Shown here: one piece after another, positions 1 to 6,313 of the stretch
How the letters are laid out: each line of letters begins with the position of its first letter
Numbering within the stretch: the stretch's first letter is position 1
Position numbers and translations under genes: made by a program
The notes under the pieces: generated by a model
Database searches by the model: none
Told to the model about the DNA's origin: nothing
Seen by the model: only the letters and a program-made list of their open reading frames with translations
NCBI GenBank assembly: GCA_025934735.1
Contig: JAICWP010000008.1
Coordinates: 1-64,000 of the forward strand
Reading direction: 5' to 3'
Origin: Terriglobales bacterium
GTDB taxonomy: Bacteria; Acidobacteriota; Terriglobia; Terriglobales; Acidobacteriaceae
DNA: 64,000 bases

Positions 1-372
1 GCTCAGCATCAATGTCTCGCAGACGTGTTGCCTACGCTGTATCCCATCAGTCGTCCCAAATGGGGCAAAAATTCCTCTGTTCGAATAAGAGTTGTCTTGC
101 GATGTGAAGTCGCTGGGCCTAGCCAAACGGGCGCCTGCTGGACGCTGGATAGGCTGTAACTGTTTCCACTTGTAAACTGCTTCGCAGGAGCGACAGCCTA
201 CCGCCCCACTACCACGTCCCGCCGTGTCTCCGACGGACAGCCGCCAGACCCACGCTCCTCTGTCGCGCAAGCGACCAGCCGCCCTGCTTCCATCCCGCTA
301 TTCCCTCATGCCCCGCTTGATGGGTTGCCCGAATCACCGGATTCAAGCCTTAGCGTGTACCACGTAAAACTC
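1..372. other. gene-free stretch at the window edge
   Basis: No convincing reading frame, RNA gene or repeat is seen here. The bases are C-rich with short runs of stop codons in all frames. It lies downstream of the leftward cargo genes of the mobile element. Confidence 0.5.
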
Positions 373-690
373 TTACAGGTCGGCATCACTGCTCATGGTT
401 CCAGAAGCGCCAGCGTCGTCTGACGACAGTCCACCCGCGAATCGTGCGATAGCGTCACGGCATCGTTGGCTCGCATCATCCACAGATGTGAAGGCTTGAG
501 CCTGAGGCAACGGTGTCTGTGGCTCGATTTTGCCCTCGCGTCGGTTCTTCCGATGGAGCGCGACGTGGCAGCGATTTGAGCACGCCGTCCTCTGGCGACC
601 CTTCAACGGCGTCCCGCAGATTGGACAGAGTCGCGGTCGCGGTTTCTGCGCCCGTGACGCAAACTTCAGTGCTTCCTCGAATGTCGGCAT
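373..690 (-). CDS. small zinc-ribbon protein of the mobile element
   Basis: The product is 105 residues. Residues about 22-40 hold CPICGTPL, then CSNRC, a C-x2-C ... C-x3-C pattern that should bind one zinc. It is followed by a basic stretch (HRKNRR) that could contact nucleic acid. The C-terminal half is Ser/Ala/Asp-rich and probably disordered. It is the last gene of the leftward cargo run, downstream of the Spo11-like gene. The start has a GGAGG-like site about 7 bases upstream. No function is known to me; a DNA- or RNA-binding accessory protein is an inference. Confidence 0.6.
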   Translation of the reverse strand: MPTFEEALKFASRAQKPRPRLCPICGTPLKGRQRTACSNRCHVALHRKNRREGKIEPQTPLPQAQAFTSVDDASQRCRDAIARFAGGLSSDDAGASGTMSSDADL

Positions 691-829
691 GTCTCCTCCC
701 TGCCATTCTCTCCCCTTGGGGTGTCTGGGTGCCCGATTTCGCGGTTACGAGGCTTCAGCCCGTGCAGCGCAGCGCCGTCACGCCCAGACTATTTCTGGTC
801 TTGACCGAAAATAGTGCTACGAAAGTTCG

Positions 830-1747
830 TCACACCGACTCCGACTCAGCAGCCAGCCGTGCTTTGATTTCGGCGCGGTCAGCTTCGGTCATCTCCTTGC
901 TCAACTCCCAGCCGTCCCTGTCATCTATGATTGCCTCGTCGTTGACCGCGAGTTCCACGCGCTCAATGAGCACCTCGGCGGGCAGACCATCGACCTCAGC
1001 CGCCGCGTTCCCATATTGTGCGACAAAGGCGTCCCTTTTTGCTTTGAACCCAGACCCACCCTTCTCATCCTCCTCAACGTCGAGCGGCAGGATTCCGTAC
1101 TTCCCGATGTCCTCAGGGAGGATTCCGAGGCGTGGCGCGAACTCAACAAAATGATGCTTCGCAGGATTGCCGAGAAGGTCGAACATCCTGAACAGTCGTT
1201 CCCTCGCGTCCCTCTCTATCTCATGCCCGTGCGGGTCGTGGTCACCGAGGTAGAAGATCGTGATGTTCTTGTGAACGTCCATCAAGTCTTTCGCGGTCTG
1301 GTGAATCGCGGTGAAACTGTTGAATCCGTGCAGCGGGCGCAGAACGATTTGATACTCACGACAGATGCCTTCGAGGATGGAGACAATCGCCATCTTCTCG
1401 ACCCACAATTCGACGTAACTGGATTGCAATTCCCAGAGGTTACGTCTATAGAACAGCGGTGCTATTTCCGCGAAGTCACCGATGTCCCTGTAGCTCACTG
1501 TCTGAAGTGGCTCTCTCCCCCCATCAATCACTTTGCCTAACAAATCCTTCGGGATGTCACCGTCCCAACGTGCGTCTGTCAACTTGGCGACGAGGCTGCG
1601 GTAGCTCGCTGGACTGTTCTCGATGATGCCGCGAGAAATCAATTCGTAGTAAAGCCTGCGGATGGTCAACGGGTATTTCGATGCGGTGAGGATGTCGCAT
1701 GTCCTCTCTATAATCTCCACCGTCTTAGCTGCTTTGCCTCGGCCCAT
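830..1747 (-). CDS. free-standing Spo11/topoisomerase VI-A-like protein (Mini-A type)
   Basis: The product is 305 residues from the ATG at 1747, chosen because AAAGGGGAAC lies just upstream; a longer frame begins at 1795. Residues 28-34 (TIRRLYY) match the catalytic-tyrosine helix of the winged-helix 5Y-CAP domain of topo VI-A/Spo11, with Y33 or Y34 as nucleophile. A Toprim domain follows: the acidic Glu is E117 in ELWVEK, and the DxD pair is D169 and D171 in LGDHDPHG. All residues needed for metal-dependent DNA cleavage appear present. No topo VI-B ATPase gene is next to it, and no Wadjet JetABC genes are seen, so it fits the lone Mini-A class described from mobile elements. The true activity is unknown. 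Confidence 0.75.
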   Translation of the reverse strand: MGRGKAAKTVEIIERTCDILTASKYPLTIRRLYYELISRGIIENSPASYRSLVAKLTDARWDGDIPKDLLGKVIDGGREPLQTVSYRDIGDFAEIAPLFYRRNLWELQSSYVELWVEKMAIVSILEGICREYQIVLRPLHGFNSFTAIHQTAKDLMDVHKNITIFYLGDHDPHGHEIERDARERLFRMFDLLGNPAKHHFVEFAPRLGILPEDIGKYGILPLDVEEDEKGGSGFKAKRDAFVAQYGNAAAEVDGLPAEVLIERVELAVNDEAIIDDRDGWELSKEMTEADRAEIKARLAAESESV

Positions 1748-1791
1748 GTGTTCCCCTTTCGCTACAGCGTCCCGTGTCGCTCCGCAGAACC

Positions 1792-2655
1792 TCACATGTG
1801 CTCACCCATTTTCTTTTCCGTGACGCATTCCATCCACTGGTAGAACGTCGTCCACATAGAACAGGTCGAGTCGTCTTGCCGAACGATGCCCAGACCGATA
1901 TGGTCGCCGTGGGAGGTGAGTAATGCGAGCGGTGTACGCTCCCAGCGGAATAGCAAAGTATTTCCGAAGTAGTCGCTCGTTCTCCTCGTGACATCAAAGA
2001 GGTAATTTCGCAGGCCGATTGTCACTATCCAGCAGACACGCGGGTTGTCATGCTCATCACTCGTAATTCCTTGATGGGGGGAGATTGTCACAGGGACATA
2101 ATCCCGACAGAACATCTCAACCGCCATCTCGAAGTCCGAGGCGAGGTCGCAGTCTGGGGCTGTGCCTATGATGTAGTGCTGAAAGATACAGACCGCCGCG
2201 ACGAACTGAGCTTCGTCACTGGCCCGCTTCTTCGCTGCTTCCTTGGACTCACGTTCGAGCCGCCGCAATTCCTTCGCAGTCAATTTCTGTGGACCGAGAG
2301 TCGTTCCGACAGGCGTCATTCCGACAGGTGTCACTAGCGCGGTGGCCTCAAGCGGAACGACTGCAGGCGTAACGACGGACGACACCTCCAAATGGTCGGG
2401 CGTGAATGCGATAGCGGGCTCCTCATTCCGAGGCTCTTTCACTGTCGAGACAAGCAAATCTTTCCGCTTCAATCCGAGCAGGCGGGCGAGGTCACCCAGG
2501 GCGTTATCATTCCATCGCCTGTCGCTCGGGGTGGACGGCGTAACAAAGGTCAAGGTCTTATCGCCGTCGTCCCGCTTCCAGACGCGGTGACGTTTCTGTC
2601 GGGCCAACTCGAATCCCTGCCGCCGCAGGACGTTATCAATTGCTTGGGTCGCCAT
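1792..2655 (-). CDS. unknown mobile-element protein with HicA-like N-terminal domain
   Basis: The product is 287 residues from the ATG at 2655, which has GAGGTG upstream; the open frame extends to 2742 without a better start. The first 65 residues (DNVLRRQGFEL, then KRHRVWKR with H23, then STPSDRRW) resemble the small dsRBD-like fold of HicA mRNA interferases, including a histidine in the usual place. A Pro/Thr-rich linker with the short repeat VTPVG/MTPVG follows, then a Lys/Glu helix and an unrecognised C-terminal domain of about 120 residues. It ends 44 bases before the Spo11-like gene, so both are probably translated from one message. No HicB antitoxin gene is recognisable beside it. Toxin function is not established. 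Confidence 0.6.
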   Translation of the reverse strand: MATQAIDNVLRRQGFELARQKRHRVWKRDDGDKTLTFVTPSTPSDRRWNDNALGDLARLLGLKRKDLLVSTVKEPRNEEPAIAFTPDHLEVSSVVTPAVVPLEATALVTPVGMTPVGTTLGPQKLTAKELRRLERESKEAAKKRASDEAQFVAAVCIFQHYIIGTAPDCDLASDFEMAVEMFCRDYVPVTISPHQGITSDEHDNPRVCWIVTIGLRNYLFDVTRRTSDYFGNTLLFRWERTPLALLTSHGDHIGLGIVRQDDSTCSMWTTFYQWMECVTEKKMGEHM

Positions 2656-2665
2656 CAGTGTCACC

Positions 2666-2980
2666 TCATGCCCGTGCTGGCTCGTTAGCGTAAATCTTGG
2701 TGCCAGACGGGAACGTGATGCAGCTTGCCATTTCGTCAGCACTCATGGTGCCGCTCTGGTGCAATGCCTCGGCCACACTAGCGAAGATTTTGTCGTAGTT
2801 TGACTCGCTGATGATTGCGTCCACGTCGAGCTTCATGGTCCGCACCATGCCCGTGAGCTCCTTCCATTTGTTGTCCACGATGAGCATCCAGCGTTCGCCC
2901 ATAATCATGTGGACATGAAACCGCGACTGTGCCCGTTCGTCCTGTCTGGTCTGGATAATTTTCATCGTACTTGTTGCCAT
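2666..2980 (-). CDS. hypothetical protein of the mobile element (104 aa)
   Basis: Starts at the ATG at 2980, behind TAGGAGGAACATC, a textbook ribosome site; the open frame runs on to 3106 without one. The protein is a soluble mixed alpha/beta chain with no cysteine pair, membrane segment or motif I recognise. It ends 10 bases before the HicA-like gene, whose ribosome site overlaps its end, so the two are translationally close. Function unknown. Confidence 0.6.
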   Translation of the reverse strand: MATSTMKIIQTRQDERAQSRFHVHMIMGERWMLIVDNKWKELTGMVRTMKLDVDAIISESNYDKIFASVAEALHQSGTMSADEMASCITFPSGTKIYANEPARA

Positions 2981-3047
2981 GATGTTCCTCCTATGTCGGC
3001 CCGCCGCTCTCTCTCTTTGTGTGTCGTGTGCTTTCGCACGAAGTGCG

Positions 3048-3440
3048 TTATTCTTCAAGCGGAACGACGCTCTGCCTCGGATACGCCTCGGGTCCGAATT
3101 CGGCAACCCGCTCCCGATAGAACTCCGTTCGTGATGCCCACGCCTCGGTCAATGCGGCCTGCAATTCACTGTCGCTCGGCTCACCGAGAATCTCGATGGC
3201 GGGGTAGGCGGTAAGCCTGTCCTCGACGATGGAGAGAATCTCGAAGTAAGGCCCGTGTGCTTGGGCTTCGTCGAGAAGATTCTCAATTTCCTCCTGGTGG
3301 TCCTGCGATACCCGCTCGACTTCGCCGTTCTTGTCGAGGAAGAAGATATGATTCTTGCCTTCCTCTGCTGATTCGACCAACTGCTTCAGCCGTCCAAATC
3401 CAATCGGCTGATTGAGTGCCGCTCCTGTTCCCGTATTCAT
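3048..3440 (-). CDS. hypothetical acidic protein of the mobile element (130 aa)
   Basis: Starts at the ATG at 3440 behind GAGAGGAACATT; the upstream open frame to 3497 lacks a ribosome site. The chain is acidic and Glu-rich, mostly helical in appearance, with no signal peptide or membrane segment. It uses the same GGAACAT leader as the next gene. No family recognised. Confidence 0.58.
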   Translation of the reverse strand: MNTGTGAALNQPIGFGRLKQLVESAEEGKNHIFFLDKNGEVERVSQDHQEEIENLLDEAQAHGPYFEILSIVEDRLTAYPAIEILGEPSDSELQAALTEAWASRTEFYRERVAEFGPEAYPRQSVVPLEE

Positions 3441-3493
3441 AATGTTCCTCTCTTTTCTGCGGCAAGCCGGCACCGCTCCGAAATTGACACGTT

Positions 3494-3724
3494 TCACTTC
3501 ACTTCACGCTGGGATTGCGTTTGGCCTATCGGCCCGCATCGCCCCAGGGTTGGGGACGCACCGTGGAAGGCTGCAAGACACAGCCAACTCGGTTGTCGGG
3601 GCGCTCGGAACTGCTGAACGCCCGCTGCTTGATGCGATTGATTGACTCGCAGTGCCAGGAATTTTGCCGTAAGTGTACTTGAAGGTGGTGAACTACCCGA
3701 CTGCAGGTTTGGATTCGTTGCCAT
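3494..3724 (-). CDS. small hypothetical protein of the mobile element (76 aa)
   Basis: The ATG at 3724 has AAAGGGGGAATTC upstream, a strong ribosome site; the frame is open back to 3856. The product is rich in Ser, Gln and Pro, with no recognisable domain. It is first in the run that continues with the 130-residue protein 53 bases downstream. It could be a real small gene or chance coding; the ribosome site favours a gene. Confidence 0.45.
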   Translation of the reverse strand: MATNPNLQSGSSPPSSTLTAKFLALRVNQSHQAAGVQQFRAPRQPSWLCLAAFHGASPTLGRCGPIGQTQSQREVK

Positions 3725-4304
3725 GAATTCCCCCTTTTTGCCCATTTTCTGGGCCACATCTGGCTTGGTTGCCGAACCACCGTGGACTAGTGAGTCCCGT
3801 TTTGTCTCGGTTGGTAGGTCTGACGCTTGGTCAGACCGTTCTTGATGTAACTTCACACTACCAAATCCGCACGCACGGCGCTATGGCCTAAAGGTCACAT
3901 GAGCGGTGTTACTACTTATCGAGGAGTGCGAACTTTGAATCGTTCTCCTCGATTGTGAAAAGTTGTTTCTCCATGTTTCCTCATCTGCGGCAGTCGATGC
4001 CGCGCCATTTCACAATCGTGAATTTGGGCCGCCGCTCCTGAATTAGTAATTGCTCGAACGCTTCACTCACTGGGGAATTTCGTTGTGCGTTTCCGCCGCG
4101 TCTCGGTCAGCAGTCTTGCCTTGCGACGAAGTCGTGACCGAAAACATCCGCGACCAACTTCAACCACTTGTGACGACGGAATGAGAATGAAGCTCCGCTG
4201 TTGCCGCCGAGATCGCCTGCTGTCACAGGCAGTTTAAGCATATGAGGAGCCCGAGTGGGAGCCGACTCGTCCTTTTATAAATCCCGACTCCCGCCTTGTT
4301 TGCC
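3725..4304. other. 580-base intergenic region of the element
   Basis: No supported gene lies here. It separates the excisionase-like gene from the rest of the leftward cargo run. It contains the 11-base inverted repeat listed separately, and CGGTCA/TGACCG at about 4105-4140. It may hold the promoter of the cargo operon or integrase/excisionase arm sites; this is inference. Confidence 0.4.
3950..4018. repeat. 11-base perfect inverted repeat with 47-base spacer
   Basis: CGATTGTGAAA at 3950-3960 is exactly complementary to TTTCACAATCG at 4008-4018. The spacing is long for a terminator. Paired sites of this kind can be operator half-sites or recombinase arm sites. The position, in a gene-free part of an integrative element upstream of the cargo genes, suits either role. 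Confidence 0.45.
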
Positions 4305-4508
4305 TCACGCCTGCTCTTGTTGGCGAAGCCACGACTCGATAGTGCTTGCCCGATACCTGTAGACTTTGCCCAACTTGATGGCAGGAATCTTGCCCGCCCG
4401 TGACTGACGAACAACAAACAGTCGGGAGACGCCGAGCAGAGTGGCGACTTCTTCAGGAGTTAGAAGTTGCTGGGGGTGTTGCTGGATTGGGGGGCGATTG
4501 TCATTCAT
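4305..4508 (-). CDS. excisionase-like MerR/AlpA-type HTH protein
   Basis: The product is 67 residues. LLTPEEVATLLGVSR forms a winged helix-turn-helix of the excisionase family (DNA-binding domain, excisionase type), followed by IPAIKLGKVYRYR, the usual wing, and a C-terminal WLRQQ helix. Start ATG at 4508 follows AAGGAAAGGGCG. It diverges from the integrase gene across about 395 bases. Known members bend attachment-site DNA and steer the integrase toward excision, or regulate int; that role is inferred here from family and position. Confidence 0.75.
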   Translation of the reverse strand: MNDNRPPIQQHPQQLLTPEEVATLLGVSRLFVVRQSRAGKIPAIKLGKVYRYRASTIESWLRQQEQA

Positions 4509-4903
4509 TCACGCCCTTTCCTTGGGCTGTCATTCATCGAGTGCCAGCTTCCGTTACGCCGCAGCATCTTTCTCAGGTGCGTGCTGCTTTGTGTCCCTCG
4601 GTGACTCCCAATAACTACATTATATAAATTTCAGGCGAAAGGTGCAATGACAAAAAGTGTCAAACACTGCTCCAGTCAAGGGTTTCAGCGTTTCTTAGTA
4701 CCACAAAGTTCTTGACCTGCCAATGAACCTCTGGCATTCTTGGACTGCATCAAGAGCAGGCCGGACACGCTCCGACCTCTCCAACCGAGACCAAGACGGG
4801 ACACGCAGTCAGTCCACGGTGGACGGGCACTAGCCCAGATGCGGCGGCGACGAGGGCCGCAAACGGAAAATCCTCTACAACCTGACACAAGGGGAGAGGC
4901 GAC
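4509..4903. other. divergent intergenic region between xis-like gene and integrase
   Basis: No supported gene. This 395-base gap should hold the promoters of both divergent genes. An AT-rich patch near 4608-4640 (ACTACATTATATAAATTT) is the most promoter-like sequence. The last bases, AAGGGGAGAGGCGAC, are the ribosome site of the integrase gene. Confidence 0.4.
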
Positions 4904-6127
4904 ATGTCCCAGCAAGGGGAACTCAAACAGATTAACGGTTCGTGGCTCGTCCGTTATTACGACGGGAAGACACGGAAGATGAAGAAACTCGGGAGGGTCA
5001 CAGACTACCCGACGAAGGACGACATCTATTCGGTCTTTCAAGAGTTCATGAGCGGAGTGAACAAGCCGAATTTCCATCCGACCGTCGGGACGCTGCTTCG
5101 CGACTTCGTCCTGAATGCGTACTTCCCCAGCCTGGATGGCTCGCTGCGTGGCTCGACATTGCGAGGATACAAAGCTATCTGGCGAAATCATCTCGAACCT
5201 CGGCTCGGTCATCACCGCGTCAGGGACATCCGCGTCTTTGATTGTCAGAAAGCGATGGAGTCAATCATCACGGCGAACCCTGAGTTGAAGCAAGCGACGT
5301 TGTCCCGTATCAAATCTTTCATGCGTGAAATCTTTGGTCAGGCGATCCGCCTTGGCCTGCGTGATGGCGATGTCAATCCGGCATCGGGTATCAAAATTCG
5401 TTGTGCGAACAAGAAGGGCAAGACGTTCGCGTATTCGCTCGACGACATCAAGGCTCTCCTCGCTGCTTTAACCGAACCGAGTCGAGTGCTGATGGCCGTC
5501 GCAGCGTACTCGGGTTTACGCCGTGGCGAGATTGTTGGCCTGAAGTGGGGAGATTATGACGGCAAGGTCATCCACGTCCGCCGCAACATCTGCTTTGGTC
5601 AGAAGGGCGAAATGAGCGTGGAGCTTCCAAAGACTGAAGCATCTGAGGCTCCAGTTCCCGTTATCGCTCCCTTGCGGAACATCCTCGATGGGCGGAAGAG
5701 TAGGGCTGAAGTCACCGATGGCTGCTGGATATTCCAAGCGGGATTCACGCGCAAGAAAGACCATCCTCAGTCTTTGCTCGATGCTGCGAAGTTGACGCCG
5801 TTGTCGCCAGCGAACGTCCTTCGTGATGTCGTCTTCCCAGCTCTGAAGAAGGCAGAGATTGAGTGGCTGGGCTATCACGCCTTCCGTCGTGGTCTGGCAA
5901 CGAACCTTCGTGCTCTCGGAGTCGATGACCTGACGATTAGCGAAATTCTGCGGCACAGTGATGTCTCTGTCACCCGCCACAACTACATCAAGCGGGTCTC
6001 TGAGAAGAGTGTCGAGGCGATGGACAGGCTTGAGGCGGAACTCTGCAAGCCCGTGCAGTCTGTTCGCATAATCGGCGGAACCAAGGGTCGAAAAGCTGAT
6101 GATGTTCTTCCCGTCAGCAGTGCCTGA
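4904..6127 (+). CDS. tyrosine-family site-specific integrase
   Basis: The product is 407 residues, normal for phage or genomic-island integrases. It has an N-terminal arm-binding region (about 1-60), a SAM-like core-binding domain (about 60-160) and a C-terminal catalytic domain. Catalytic residues are visible: R206 in SGLRRGEI, H325 and R328 in YHAFRRG, H351 in ILRHSDV, and the nucleophile Y361 in RHNYIK. ATG at 4904 is preceded by GGGGAGAGGCGAC. It catalyses insertion and excision of the element, most likely at the adjacent tRNA-Thr gene. All catalytic residues are intact. Confidence 0.93.
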   Translation: MSQQGELKQINGSWLVRYYDGKTRKMKKLGRVTDYPTKDDIYSVFQEFMSGVNKPNFHPTVGTLLRDFVLNAYFPSLDGSLRGSTLRGYKAIWRNHLEPRLGHHRVRDIRVFDCQKAMESIITANPELKQATLSRIKSFMREIFGQAIRLGLRDGDVNPASGIKIRCANKKGKTFAYSLDDIKALLAALTEPSRVLMAVAAYSGLRRGEIVGLKWGDYDGKVIHVRRNICFGQKGEMSVELPKTEASEAPVPVIAPLRNILDGRKSRAEVTDGCWIFQAGFTRKKDHPQSLLDAAKLTPLSPANVLRDVVFPALKKAEIEWLGYHAFRRGLATNLRALGVDDLTISEILRHSDVSVTRHNYIKRVSEKSVEAMDRLEAELCKPVQSVRIIGGTKGRKADDVLPVSSA

Positions 6128-6237
6128 GTGATATTCTCAAGATGGCTGACGGCACAGAGCGGCGGGAGCCGTTGACGTGCCGATAGCCCTCGGAAATGGG
6201 ATCCAGATAGGCAACAAAATCCCCGTAAGTCATTGAG

Positions 6238-6313
6238 GCCGAGATAGCTCAGTTGGTAGAGCAGCTGATTCGTAATCAGCAGGTCGCCGGTTCAAGTCCG
6301 GCTCTCGGCTCCA
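6238..6313 (+). tRNA. tRNA-Thr (anticodon CGT)
   Basis: A 76-base cloverleaf can be folded by eye. The acceptor stem is GCCGAGA/TCTCGGC with discriminator T and encoded CCA. The D arm is GCTC/GAGC, the anticodon stem GCTGA/TCAGC with loop TTCGTAA giving anticodon CGT (reads ACG, threonine), and the T arm GCCGG TTCAAGT CCGGC. It is the likely target gene of the element to its left. Confidence 0.95.

Follow-up and report, generated by a model that had tools for sequence, protein, structure and literature searches.

The 305-residue protein encoded on the minus strand at positions 830 to 1,747 of the window is, as judged from its sequence, a divergent new member of Mini-A, an already published family of lone proteins of the topoisomerase VI A subunit (topo VI-A)/Spo11 type, and it is carried by a tRNA-integrated element for which we located both ends. 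By the window we mean the whole stretch of DNA that was analysed, 64,000 nucleotides of a Terriglobales bacterium (assembly GCA_025934735.1, 4.94 Mb in 50 contigs), which starts at the first base of contig JAICWP010000008.1, here called C10. We propose, at about an even chance, that Mini-A is a stand-alone enzyme, probably a homodimer, which cleaves DNA for the replication or recombination of a satellite-like element once this has been excised. Beyond what is published on the family, we contribute the limits of the element and the finding that some of the relatives lie in a satellite-like setting among replication genes. The family was reportedly described by Takahashi et al. in 2020.

Profile and tblastn comparisons bear out the original prediction of a lone topo VI-A/Spo11-type protein, of the Mini-A type, on an integrative element. 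The best family match was PHROG_6247, 'DNA topoisomerase' (E 6.8e-41, residues 5-289); Pseudomonas phage NP1 matched the window protein by tblastn with E 2e-24 and 77% covered, and LC711082, annotated 'Topo Mini-A', with E 5e-19 and 86% covered, that annotation being found on two archaeal plasmid records among the tblastn matches. The NP1 protein is itself a Mini-A example in the figure legend of a review (PMC7614492). On the strength of these matches, which extend homology to Mini-A across most of the length of the protein, we assign it to the family. Of 50,697 phage and 72,556 plasmid records, 76 and 40 respectively gave a tblastn match at E ≤ 0.01, with all identities below 60%. The Pfam topo VI-A/Spo11 Toprim model stayed sub-threshold, at 15.6 bits (E 0.016) against a cut-off of 24.1; NCBIfam returned a single match at chance level and PADLOC none. 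A single-sequence scan of viral contigs gave 11 stretches and no relative, and a single-sequence PDB search gave one irrelevant match and none to Spo11. The codon-position GC of the gene (0.59/0.38/0.69) follows the coding pattern.

The absence of a topo VI-B partner, noted at first for the window, extends to the genome: PF09239 is neither fused nor adjacent to Mini-A and had no match in the whole 50-contig assembly (control search positive in 4 of 14 named genomes), and JetD (PF09983, JetD_C) had no match there either (control positive in 1 of 14). Membership of topo VI, which entails a GHKL ATPase B subunit, and of Wadjet/JetD, which entails the JetD_C domain, was rejected on these grounds. 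The window protein shares with the Mini-A family its size, the lack of a B subunit, the active-site set and the mobile-element setting, but differs in its long branch and in lacking a K..D..R motif that is near-universal in the sampled relatives. For a family whose function one review calls unknown (PMC8084294), and for whose archaeal members a passage in another source speaks of 'no characterization' of activity (PMC8185306), the satellite-like context gives a testable role.

The genes and sites of the element that lie in the window are listed here by position.

1..7 (no strand): presumed IS21-type junction; bases 1-3 finish the IS end, as judged from contig C46, and bases 4-7 are CAGC, the 4 bp also found across the IS on contig C2
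373..690 (-): 105-aa ORF, downstream of Mini-A; weak treble-clef/zinc-ribbon likeness (PF09889 E 7e-4, NCBIfam YacG-type E 1e-4, both sub-threshold)
830..1747 (-): gene for Mini-A, topo VI-A/Spo11-like, the 305 aa being encoded by 833-1747; from ORF list, PHROG, alignment and predicted fold; predicted winged-helix/CAP domain at about residues 5-88 with R30 and Y34, Toprim domain with E117, D169 and D171, plus E251
1792..2742 (-): 316-aa ORF, upstream of Mini-A; HicA-like N-terminal region at about residues 32-90 (phrog_2053, unknown function, E 4e-8; PADLOC 'HicA-like' E 0.002)
2666..3106 (-): 146-aa ORF, no significant family in Pfam, PHROG or NCBIfam
3048..3497 (-): 149-aa ORF, no significant family in Pfam, PHROG or NCBIfam
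4305..4508 (-): HTH_17 protein of AlpA/excisionase type, 67 aa (PF12728 E 7.4e-14; phrog_66 'excisionase and transcriptional regulator' E 2e-9)
4904..6127 (+): tyrosine integrase, 407 aa (PF00589 E 5e-12; phrog_1 E 1.7e-55)
6223..6232 (+): 10-bp motif CCGTAAGTCA near attR; second occurrence at C2:4183-4192 near attL, inverted relative to the element
6237..6275 (no strand): att core, 39 bp, tRNA-Thr 5' half through the anticodon; duplicated at G000:C2:4264-4302(-)
6238..6313 (+): intact tRNA-Thr (CGT) gene, right end of the element (attR), from the tRNA search

Because the 39-bp repeat is found both at tRNA-Thr and on C2, we take its two copies as the two ends of the element, the opposite end thus lying on C2; a tRNA search found no tRNA at the C2 copy (4264-4302). 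The pair of CCGTAAGTCA motifs may possibly be integrase arm sites. C2:1-2674 (L183) is an IS21-type element with an IstA-like protein (PF22483, with rve marginally sub-threshold) and IstB (PF01695 E 4e-62), and C10 would continue directly from its end under either placement of the junction: C46 and C10 both go on with CA, so the IS end could lie two bases later, in which case the CAGC match would be due to chance. The island measures 7,896 bp when both att cores are counted and the IS and one of the CAGC copies are left out. The IS insertion point lies between convergent genes and disrupts no recognised gene, although two doubtful frames (66 and 149 aa) span the site. We rejected C46 as a missing part of the element, since it consists of 141 bp of IS end followed by other sequence and more probably represents the surroundings of another copy of the IS. 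Beyond C46:1-141 a possible tRNA 3' end was seen by eye, perhaps another element boundary.

From left to right the element comprises 59- and 159-aa ORFs, the IS, a minus-strand block (in which the 105-aa ORF and Mini-A are followed by ORFs of 316, 146, 149 and, doubtfully, 120 aa and then by the HTH_17 gene) and the plus-strand integrase. Among its 12 main ORFs, IS genes included, Pfam (and PHROG for nine) recognised no primase, helicase or capsid gene; the lack of a recognised replication gene among these 12 counts against our main reading. The original prediction allowed that Mini-A and its small neighbours could form one functional set, and a survey of the neighbours gave that idea no foothold. 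By blastp at E ≤ 0.05 against the ORFs of the Mini-A loci gathered at that stage, the 316-, 146-, 149-, 120- and 105-aa ORFs and two far-end genes had no match outside their own genome, the integrase and the HTH_17 protein being the only neighbours with relatives there. The 316-aa protein occurs in 1 of 396 phylum genomes, its own (no relative at E ≤ 0.001 in the other 395), and the integrase has no near relative (E ≤ 1e-60) in those 395. An operon of co-functioning small genes was therefore rejected. Two sequence details were seen in passing: a 15-bp tandem repeat of 2.3 copies within the 316-aa ORF (window 2300-2333), and imperfect 19-bp inverted repeats that flank the HTH_17 gene (3770-3788 and 4811-4829) and are possible regulatory sites.

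To count conservation we drew on 178 loci with a Mini-A match, using 167 full-length relatives and dropping 11; the relatives are the best 80 each of 468 viral and 350 genome hits, to which five plasmid/phage loci and the hits in the phylum and relatives samples were added, and the alignment and tree have 168 rows, 157 of them different and several identical. The translation of the 305-aa ORF has T28-I-R-R-L-Y33-Y34, E117 and G168-D169-H-D171-P-H-G just where they had been placed originally. R30 and Y34 each occur in 165 of the 165 rows with a residue at that column (167 relatives), E117, D169, D171, P172 and G174 each in 167 of 167 relatives, and E251 and D253 each in 165 of 167. Of the tyrosine pair first put forward, Y34 stands and Y33 falls away: the Y33 column holds Y in 120 of 165 rows and otherwise mostly F, H or C, and because it varies we take Y34 to be the likely nucleophile of the two.

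Profile alignment by hhalign to archaeal topo VI-A (five topo VI-A rows in the first run, six of 10 in the second; probability 33%, P 5e-4, low diversity) matched T28-Y34, E117 and D169/D171 to the corresponding Tyr and Toprim motifs; when run globally, it also paired E251 with the Glu that occupies position 342 of the template. For the M. mazei enzyme one report describes a clasp of R102 and E342 that keeps Y106 off the Toprim triad (E202/D254/D256), and an E342Q mutant with an increased tendency to break DNA (PMC13040014). Mini-A and M. mazei topo VI have the R-x-x-x-Y spacing in common, and we infer that R30-E251 is the counterpart of the topo VI clasp. Mini-A would appear, then, to keep topo VI's cleavage-restraining clasp though it has no B subunit, which makes clasp release a direct biochemical question.

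A profile of 68 rows, searched against 177,635 PDB sequences, had topo VI-A 1d3y as its sole match at E ≤ 10 (E 0.0085), and in the Tyr-motif segment, worth 3 bits by itself, the R and YY align as expected. The AlphaFold monomer model (mean pLDDT 92.9) matched topo VI chains at ranks 1-8 of a Foldseek search of the PDB (E 4e-6 to 6e-3), followed by unrelated aminotransferases at 7e-3; these topo VI matches had a TM of 0.30-0.36 and a large rmsd, perhaps through a differing orientation of the two domains. VIA, in whose lists the absence of a family was given no weight, scored topo VI-A at Z 11.0 (152 residues, 4.2 Å), a small Toprim protein at Z 9.9, the C. glutamicum nuclease 8b7f at Z 9.8, JetD 7til at Z 9.7 and Spo11 at Z 9.1, with gyrase/topo IV nearly as high as the nuclease and the small Toprim protein. 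Because a small Toprim protein reaches Z 9.9, similarity of the Toprim fold does not discriminate. When the N-terminal 91 residues were modelled alone (pLDDT 83.7), the top VIA match was 1d3y residues 71-153 at Z 7.9 (below 8; 3.6 Å, 78 residues) with the runner-up at Z 6.3, and Foldseek gave no significant match (38 at E ≤ 10, with 1d3y at rank 10, E 5.2). A viral structure library yielded one match at E ≤ 0.001, without a name. The CAP-type fold on which the original prediction had staked itself has moderate support in the models; by alignment and predicted fold the topo VI-A Tyr would lie in a winged helix, accompanied by the Toprim acids and an R-E clasp, with moderate confidence for the winged-helix part and for E251. 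Mini-A resembles topo VI-A (1d3y, 9o0g) in its predicted winged-helix/CAP plus Toprim architecture and in the aligned Tyr, E/D/D and R/E clasp positions, but differs in that the window genome lacks a B subunit gene and the protein falls below the Pfam cut-off.

The Toprim fold that Mini-A has in common with JetD 7til and the C. glutamicum nuclease 8b7f, together with the statement that Wadjet and Gabija nucleases are topo VI homologues (PMC13040014), would suit a defence or exclusion nuclease, JetD- or Gabija-like, directed against incoming phage or plasmid DNA. We regard this as very unlikely: the resemblance to JetD (Wadjet/MksG) concerns the Toprim region, in which small Toprim proteins score equally and gyrase/topo IV nearly so, whereas the window genome has no JetD_C and the protein no PADLOC match, phages carry the Mini-A family themselves (the 76 records), and the locus neighbours lean to replication genes. 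Of the maintenance, replication or defence module first suggested for this gene, the defence part is not supported, PADLOC giving no match, and the context of the relatives favours replication or recombination.

In the mechanism that we propose, the integrase and the AlpA/Xis-type protein would first excise the element from tRNA-Thr, and Mini-A would act in the replication/recombination phase of this small satellite-like integrative element. The nucleophile would be Tyr34 of one subunit, which the R30-E251 clasp would hold back, and the Mg site at which it attacks DNA would be that of the other subunit (E117, D169, D171); the resulting nick or break would bear the protein at its 5' end and leave the 3'-OH free. 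Mouse SPO11 dimers are reported to cut DNA in vitro without partners and to remain on the 5' ends, with evidence of nick resealing in the same report (PMC11922746), and by homology Mini-A should do some of what SPO11 does. The two proteins share the Toprim match but differ in that the PDB searches found topo VI-A as the sole relative and no Spo11 by sequence, and in that Mini-A sits on a prokaryotic mobile element. Between break, nick and swivel the sequence does not decide. A true topoisomerase or swivelase, which would reseal what it cuts, relaxing or unlinking the element during replication and leaving no permanent break, seems unlikely to us, although it would accord with the topo VI-A kinship (Foldseek, PDB profile search), with the weak relaxation activity stated for Topo VIII relatives (PMC7614492), with the SPO11 nick-resealing evidence (PMC11922746) and with the primase/helicase and ligase genes that Mini-A adjoins in relatives. 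It is opposed by the lack of an ATPase subunit, PF09239 being absent from the genome. The strand-passage cycle of topo VI needs that subunit; relaxation by nicking does not.

The window copy is strongly diverged. At columns conserved in at least 90% of rows it is changed at 7 of 30, a number exceeded in two of the 167 relatives (8 and 11), the other 165 having at most 5. Three of the seven belong to a K-x-T-D-x-R motif past the Toprim domain, part of which topo VI-A also carries (profile alignment); the K occurs in 167, the D in 167 and the R in 163 of the 167 relatives, and the window copy, which has E225, E228 and G230 there, lacks the motif as defined from the rows gathered here, its R column aligning to window K237 in another alignment. 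A frameshift as the source of this loss was rejected, the motif being absent by eye from both other frames. The end branch of the window copy, 2.15 against a median of 0.4, is the fourth longest among the 168 rows and lies inside a 21-row clade (SH-aLRT 100) in which 15 of the 20 other rows are Planctomycetota or Acidobacteriota; the exact position within the clade is unsure because long branches meet there. A Mini-A identical to that of a Granulicella locus was found in a genome of the host's own family, so that the host probably belongs to the Acidobacteriaceae. The window copy may have become specialised, or it may be decaying.

That the gene is a decaying relic, its frame still open but dispensable to an element that integrates and persists without Mini-A, is possible if on balance doubtful. 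To the long branch, the changed columns and the lost motif this reading adds the IS21-type element inside the island, in-frame stops in two other copies of the phylum sample (L090 and L096, one of which has the same Mini-A as a Granulicella locus), and the 395 other phylum genomes with neither a relative of the 316-aa protein nor a near relative of the integrase. The open frame with its coding GC pattern, the confidence of the monomer model and the position of the IS between convergent genes, with no recognised gene broken, speak against it, as do the presumed catalytic and clasp residues; because these are intact, we favour retained activity in the window copy.

Mini-A is a sporadic gene, present in 13 of 396 genomes of the phylum sample and 2 of 41 of the relatives sample (own genome included in each), and its neighbourhood was analysed at 166 non-redundant loci over stretches of up to 10 kb per side, with gene clusters annotated via one representative each. 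Tyrosine integrases were found at 47 loci, SF2 helicases at 22, ParB/methylase genes at 20, a primase/replicative-helicase cluster (labelled 'PrimPol-D5' and spanning Prim-Pol, D5 and AAA_25/DnaB-type proteins) at 17, PriCT primases at 12, portal genes at 11, serine recombinases at 11, DNA ligases at 8, SSB-like genes at 8 and AAA_24 genes at 6. The sequence within 2 kb of Mini-A makes up 33% of that searched, which served as the expected share in binomial tests. Within this distance lay 16 of 17 primase/replicative-helicase cluster genes (p 2.5e-7), 8 of 8 DNA ligases (p 1.4e-4), 7 of 8 SSB-like genes (p 2.5e-3), 5 of 6 AAA_24 genes (p 0.017) and 29 of 51 tyrosine integrases (p 4e-4), p-values that are optimistic because the loci are related, the clusters being small as well. 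SF2 helicases showed no significant excess (9 of 22, p 0.29), nor were methylases (3 of 20) or PriCT primases (2 of 12) significantly near; serine recombinases stood at 4 of 12 (count only). Portal genes were also close (8 of 11, count only), so that nearness extends past replication genes. In five loci (L104, L109, L120, L138, L166) Mini-A overlaps a primase/helicase-cluster gene by 1-4 bp, and in phage JG054 its neighbours are a RecA-type ATPase on one side and, across one small gene, a ligase on the other. From this position beside primase, helicase, ligase and SSB genes we argue for a role in copying or recombining element DNA.

Some of these loci are satellite-like islands. Among 58 integrase loci an att search found seven whose limits are marked by direct repeats enclosing both the integrase and Mini-A, with spans of 7.2-13.8 kb, most of the 58 stretches being too short to tell; five islands lie at tRNA genes (L103, L112, L117, L123, L139), L042, a viral contig, is delimited by repeats without a tRNA, and L129, whose contig ends overlap by 99 bp, is probably circular. 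A primase or replicative helicase is found in four of the seven (L103, L117, L123, L129), a RepO/DnaD-like gene in L139, an HK97 major capsid gene in three (recognised by Pfam in L103 and L139, and in L123 by an HMM made from those two) and a prohead protease gene in L103. Terminase and portal genes were seen at 3 and 0 of the 58 integrase loci and at 10 and 11 of the other 108, over stretches of at most 10 kb per side. HTH_17/AlpA-like ORFs occur at 50 of the 166 Mini-A loci (HMM iterated, E 1e-3), a few long-ORF matches among which may be false; Pfam confirms the assignment in four of five tested loci, one of the four sub-threshold. L117 and L123 combine an integrase, a D5/DUF5906 primase (Pfam) and an HTH_17-like ORF (HMM), and L138 an HTH_17/AlpA gene (Pfam) with integrase and primase-cluster genes (HMM).

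The PICMI satellite model comprises an integrase, AlpA (PF05930/PF12728), a primase (DUF3987/DUF5906) and a fis gene (PMC10803314). The window element, small and tRNA-integrated, has the integrase (PF00589) and the AlpA-type gene (PF12728), and in this it resembles PICMI and capsid-forming PICI, as do some islands of relatives, which add a primase and, in three delimited cases, the HK97 capsid. It differs from them in having neither a recognised primase (12 main ORFs; the Prim-Pol domain PF09250 had no match genome-wide) nor an HK97 capsid gene of its own (12 ORFs scanned), and in having no known helper. The word 'topoisomerase' is absent from the text of the PICMI paper (PMC10803314), and the literature searched, whose scope did not take in the founding Mini-A description, showed no link between Mini-A and satellites. 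We advance only tentatively, and with considerable doubt, the broader reading that Mini-A is the signature enzyme of undescribed, widespread satellite-like islands (integrase, AlpA-type gene, primase or replicative helicase, Mini-A and sometimes an HK97 capsid gene), whose Spo11-type 5'-linked breaks would launch replication or recombination, the window element being a stripped form. If true, breaks on excised islands would be a prokaryotic counterpart of meiotic break formation, and the window element would have kept Mini-A as its sole recognised enzyme besides the integrase.

The island L103 lies in the cultured Edaphobacter aggregans DSM 19364 and thereby offers a tractable system. A nick with protein linked to its 5' end leaves a 3'-OH by chemistry, and once the integrase and the proteins for IS transposition are set aside, Mini-A is the one enzyme recognised among the 12 main ORFs scanned; both points would fit a replication initiator, in which the 3'-OH from Tyr34 cleavage primes copying of the excised element in place of the missing primase. 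The small Mini-A plasmids L002 and L003, in which the largest protein seen has no significant Pfam/PHROG family (that of L003 being cut at the stretch end), would fit it too. We nevertheless consider it extremely unlikely, given that four of the seven delimited elements already have a primase or replicative helicase and a fifth, L139, the RepO/DnaD-like gene, and that a search of window 1-4904 revealed no array of iterons; cleavage by Mini-A in the replication or recombination of the excised element remains our preferred reading.

Several further loci deserve mention. L003 is a 15-kb Paenibacillus durus plasmid with Mini-A and a Zot-like ATPase, and could be a small virus genome. At L090 and L173 (Granulicella) the stop-bearing Mini-A lies downstream of tRNA-Ser and an integrase; L090, the duplicate, matches the capsid HMM, and L173 has capsid- and protease-like ORFs by eye. 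In an Acidobacteriia bin (L116:11126-13942) a CHAT-domain TPR protein is encoded about 200 bp downstream of Mini-A, possibly as a cargo defence gene. Two assemblies hold two Mini-A loci each, a Firmicutes MAG (L123 and L150) and a Planctomycetaceae MAG (L104 and L109), which suggests that one host can carry several related elements.
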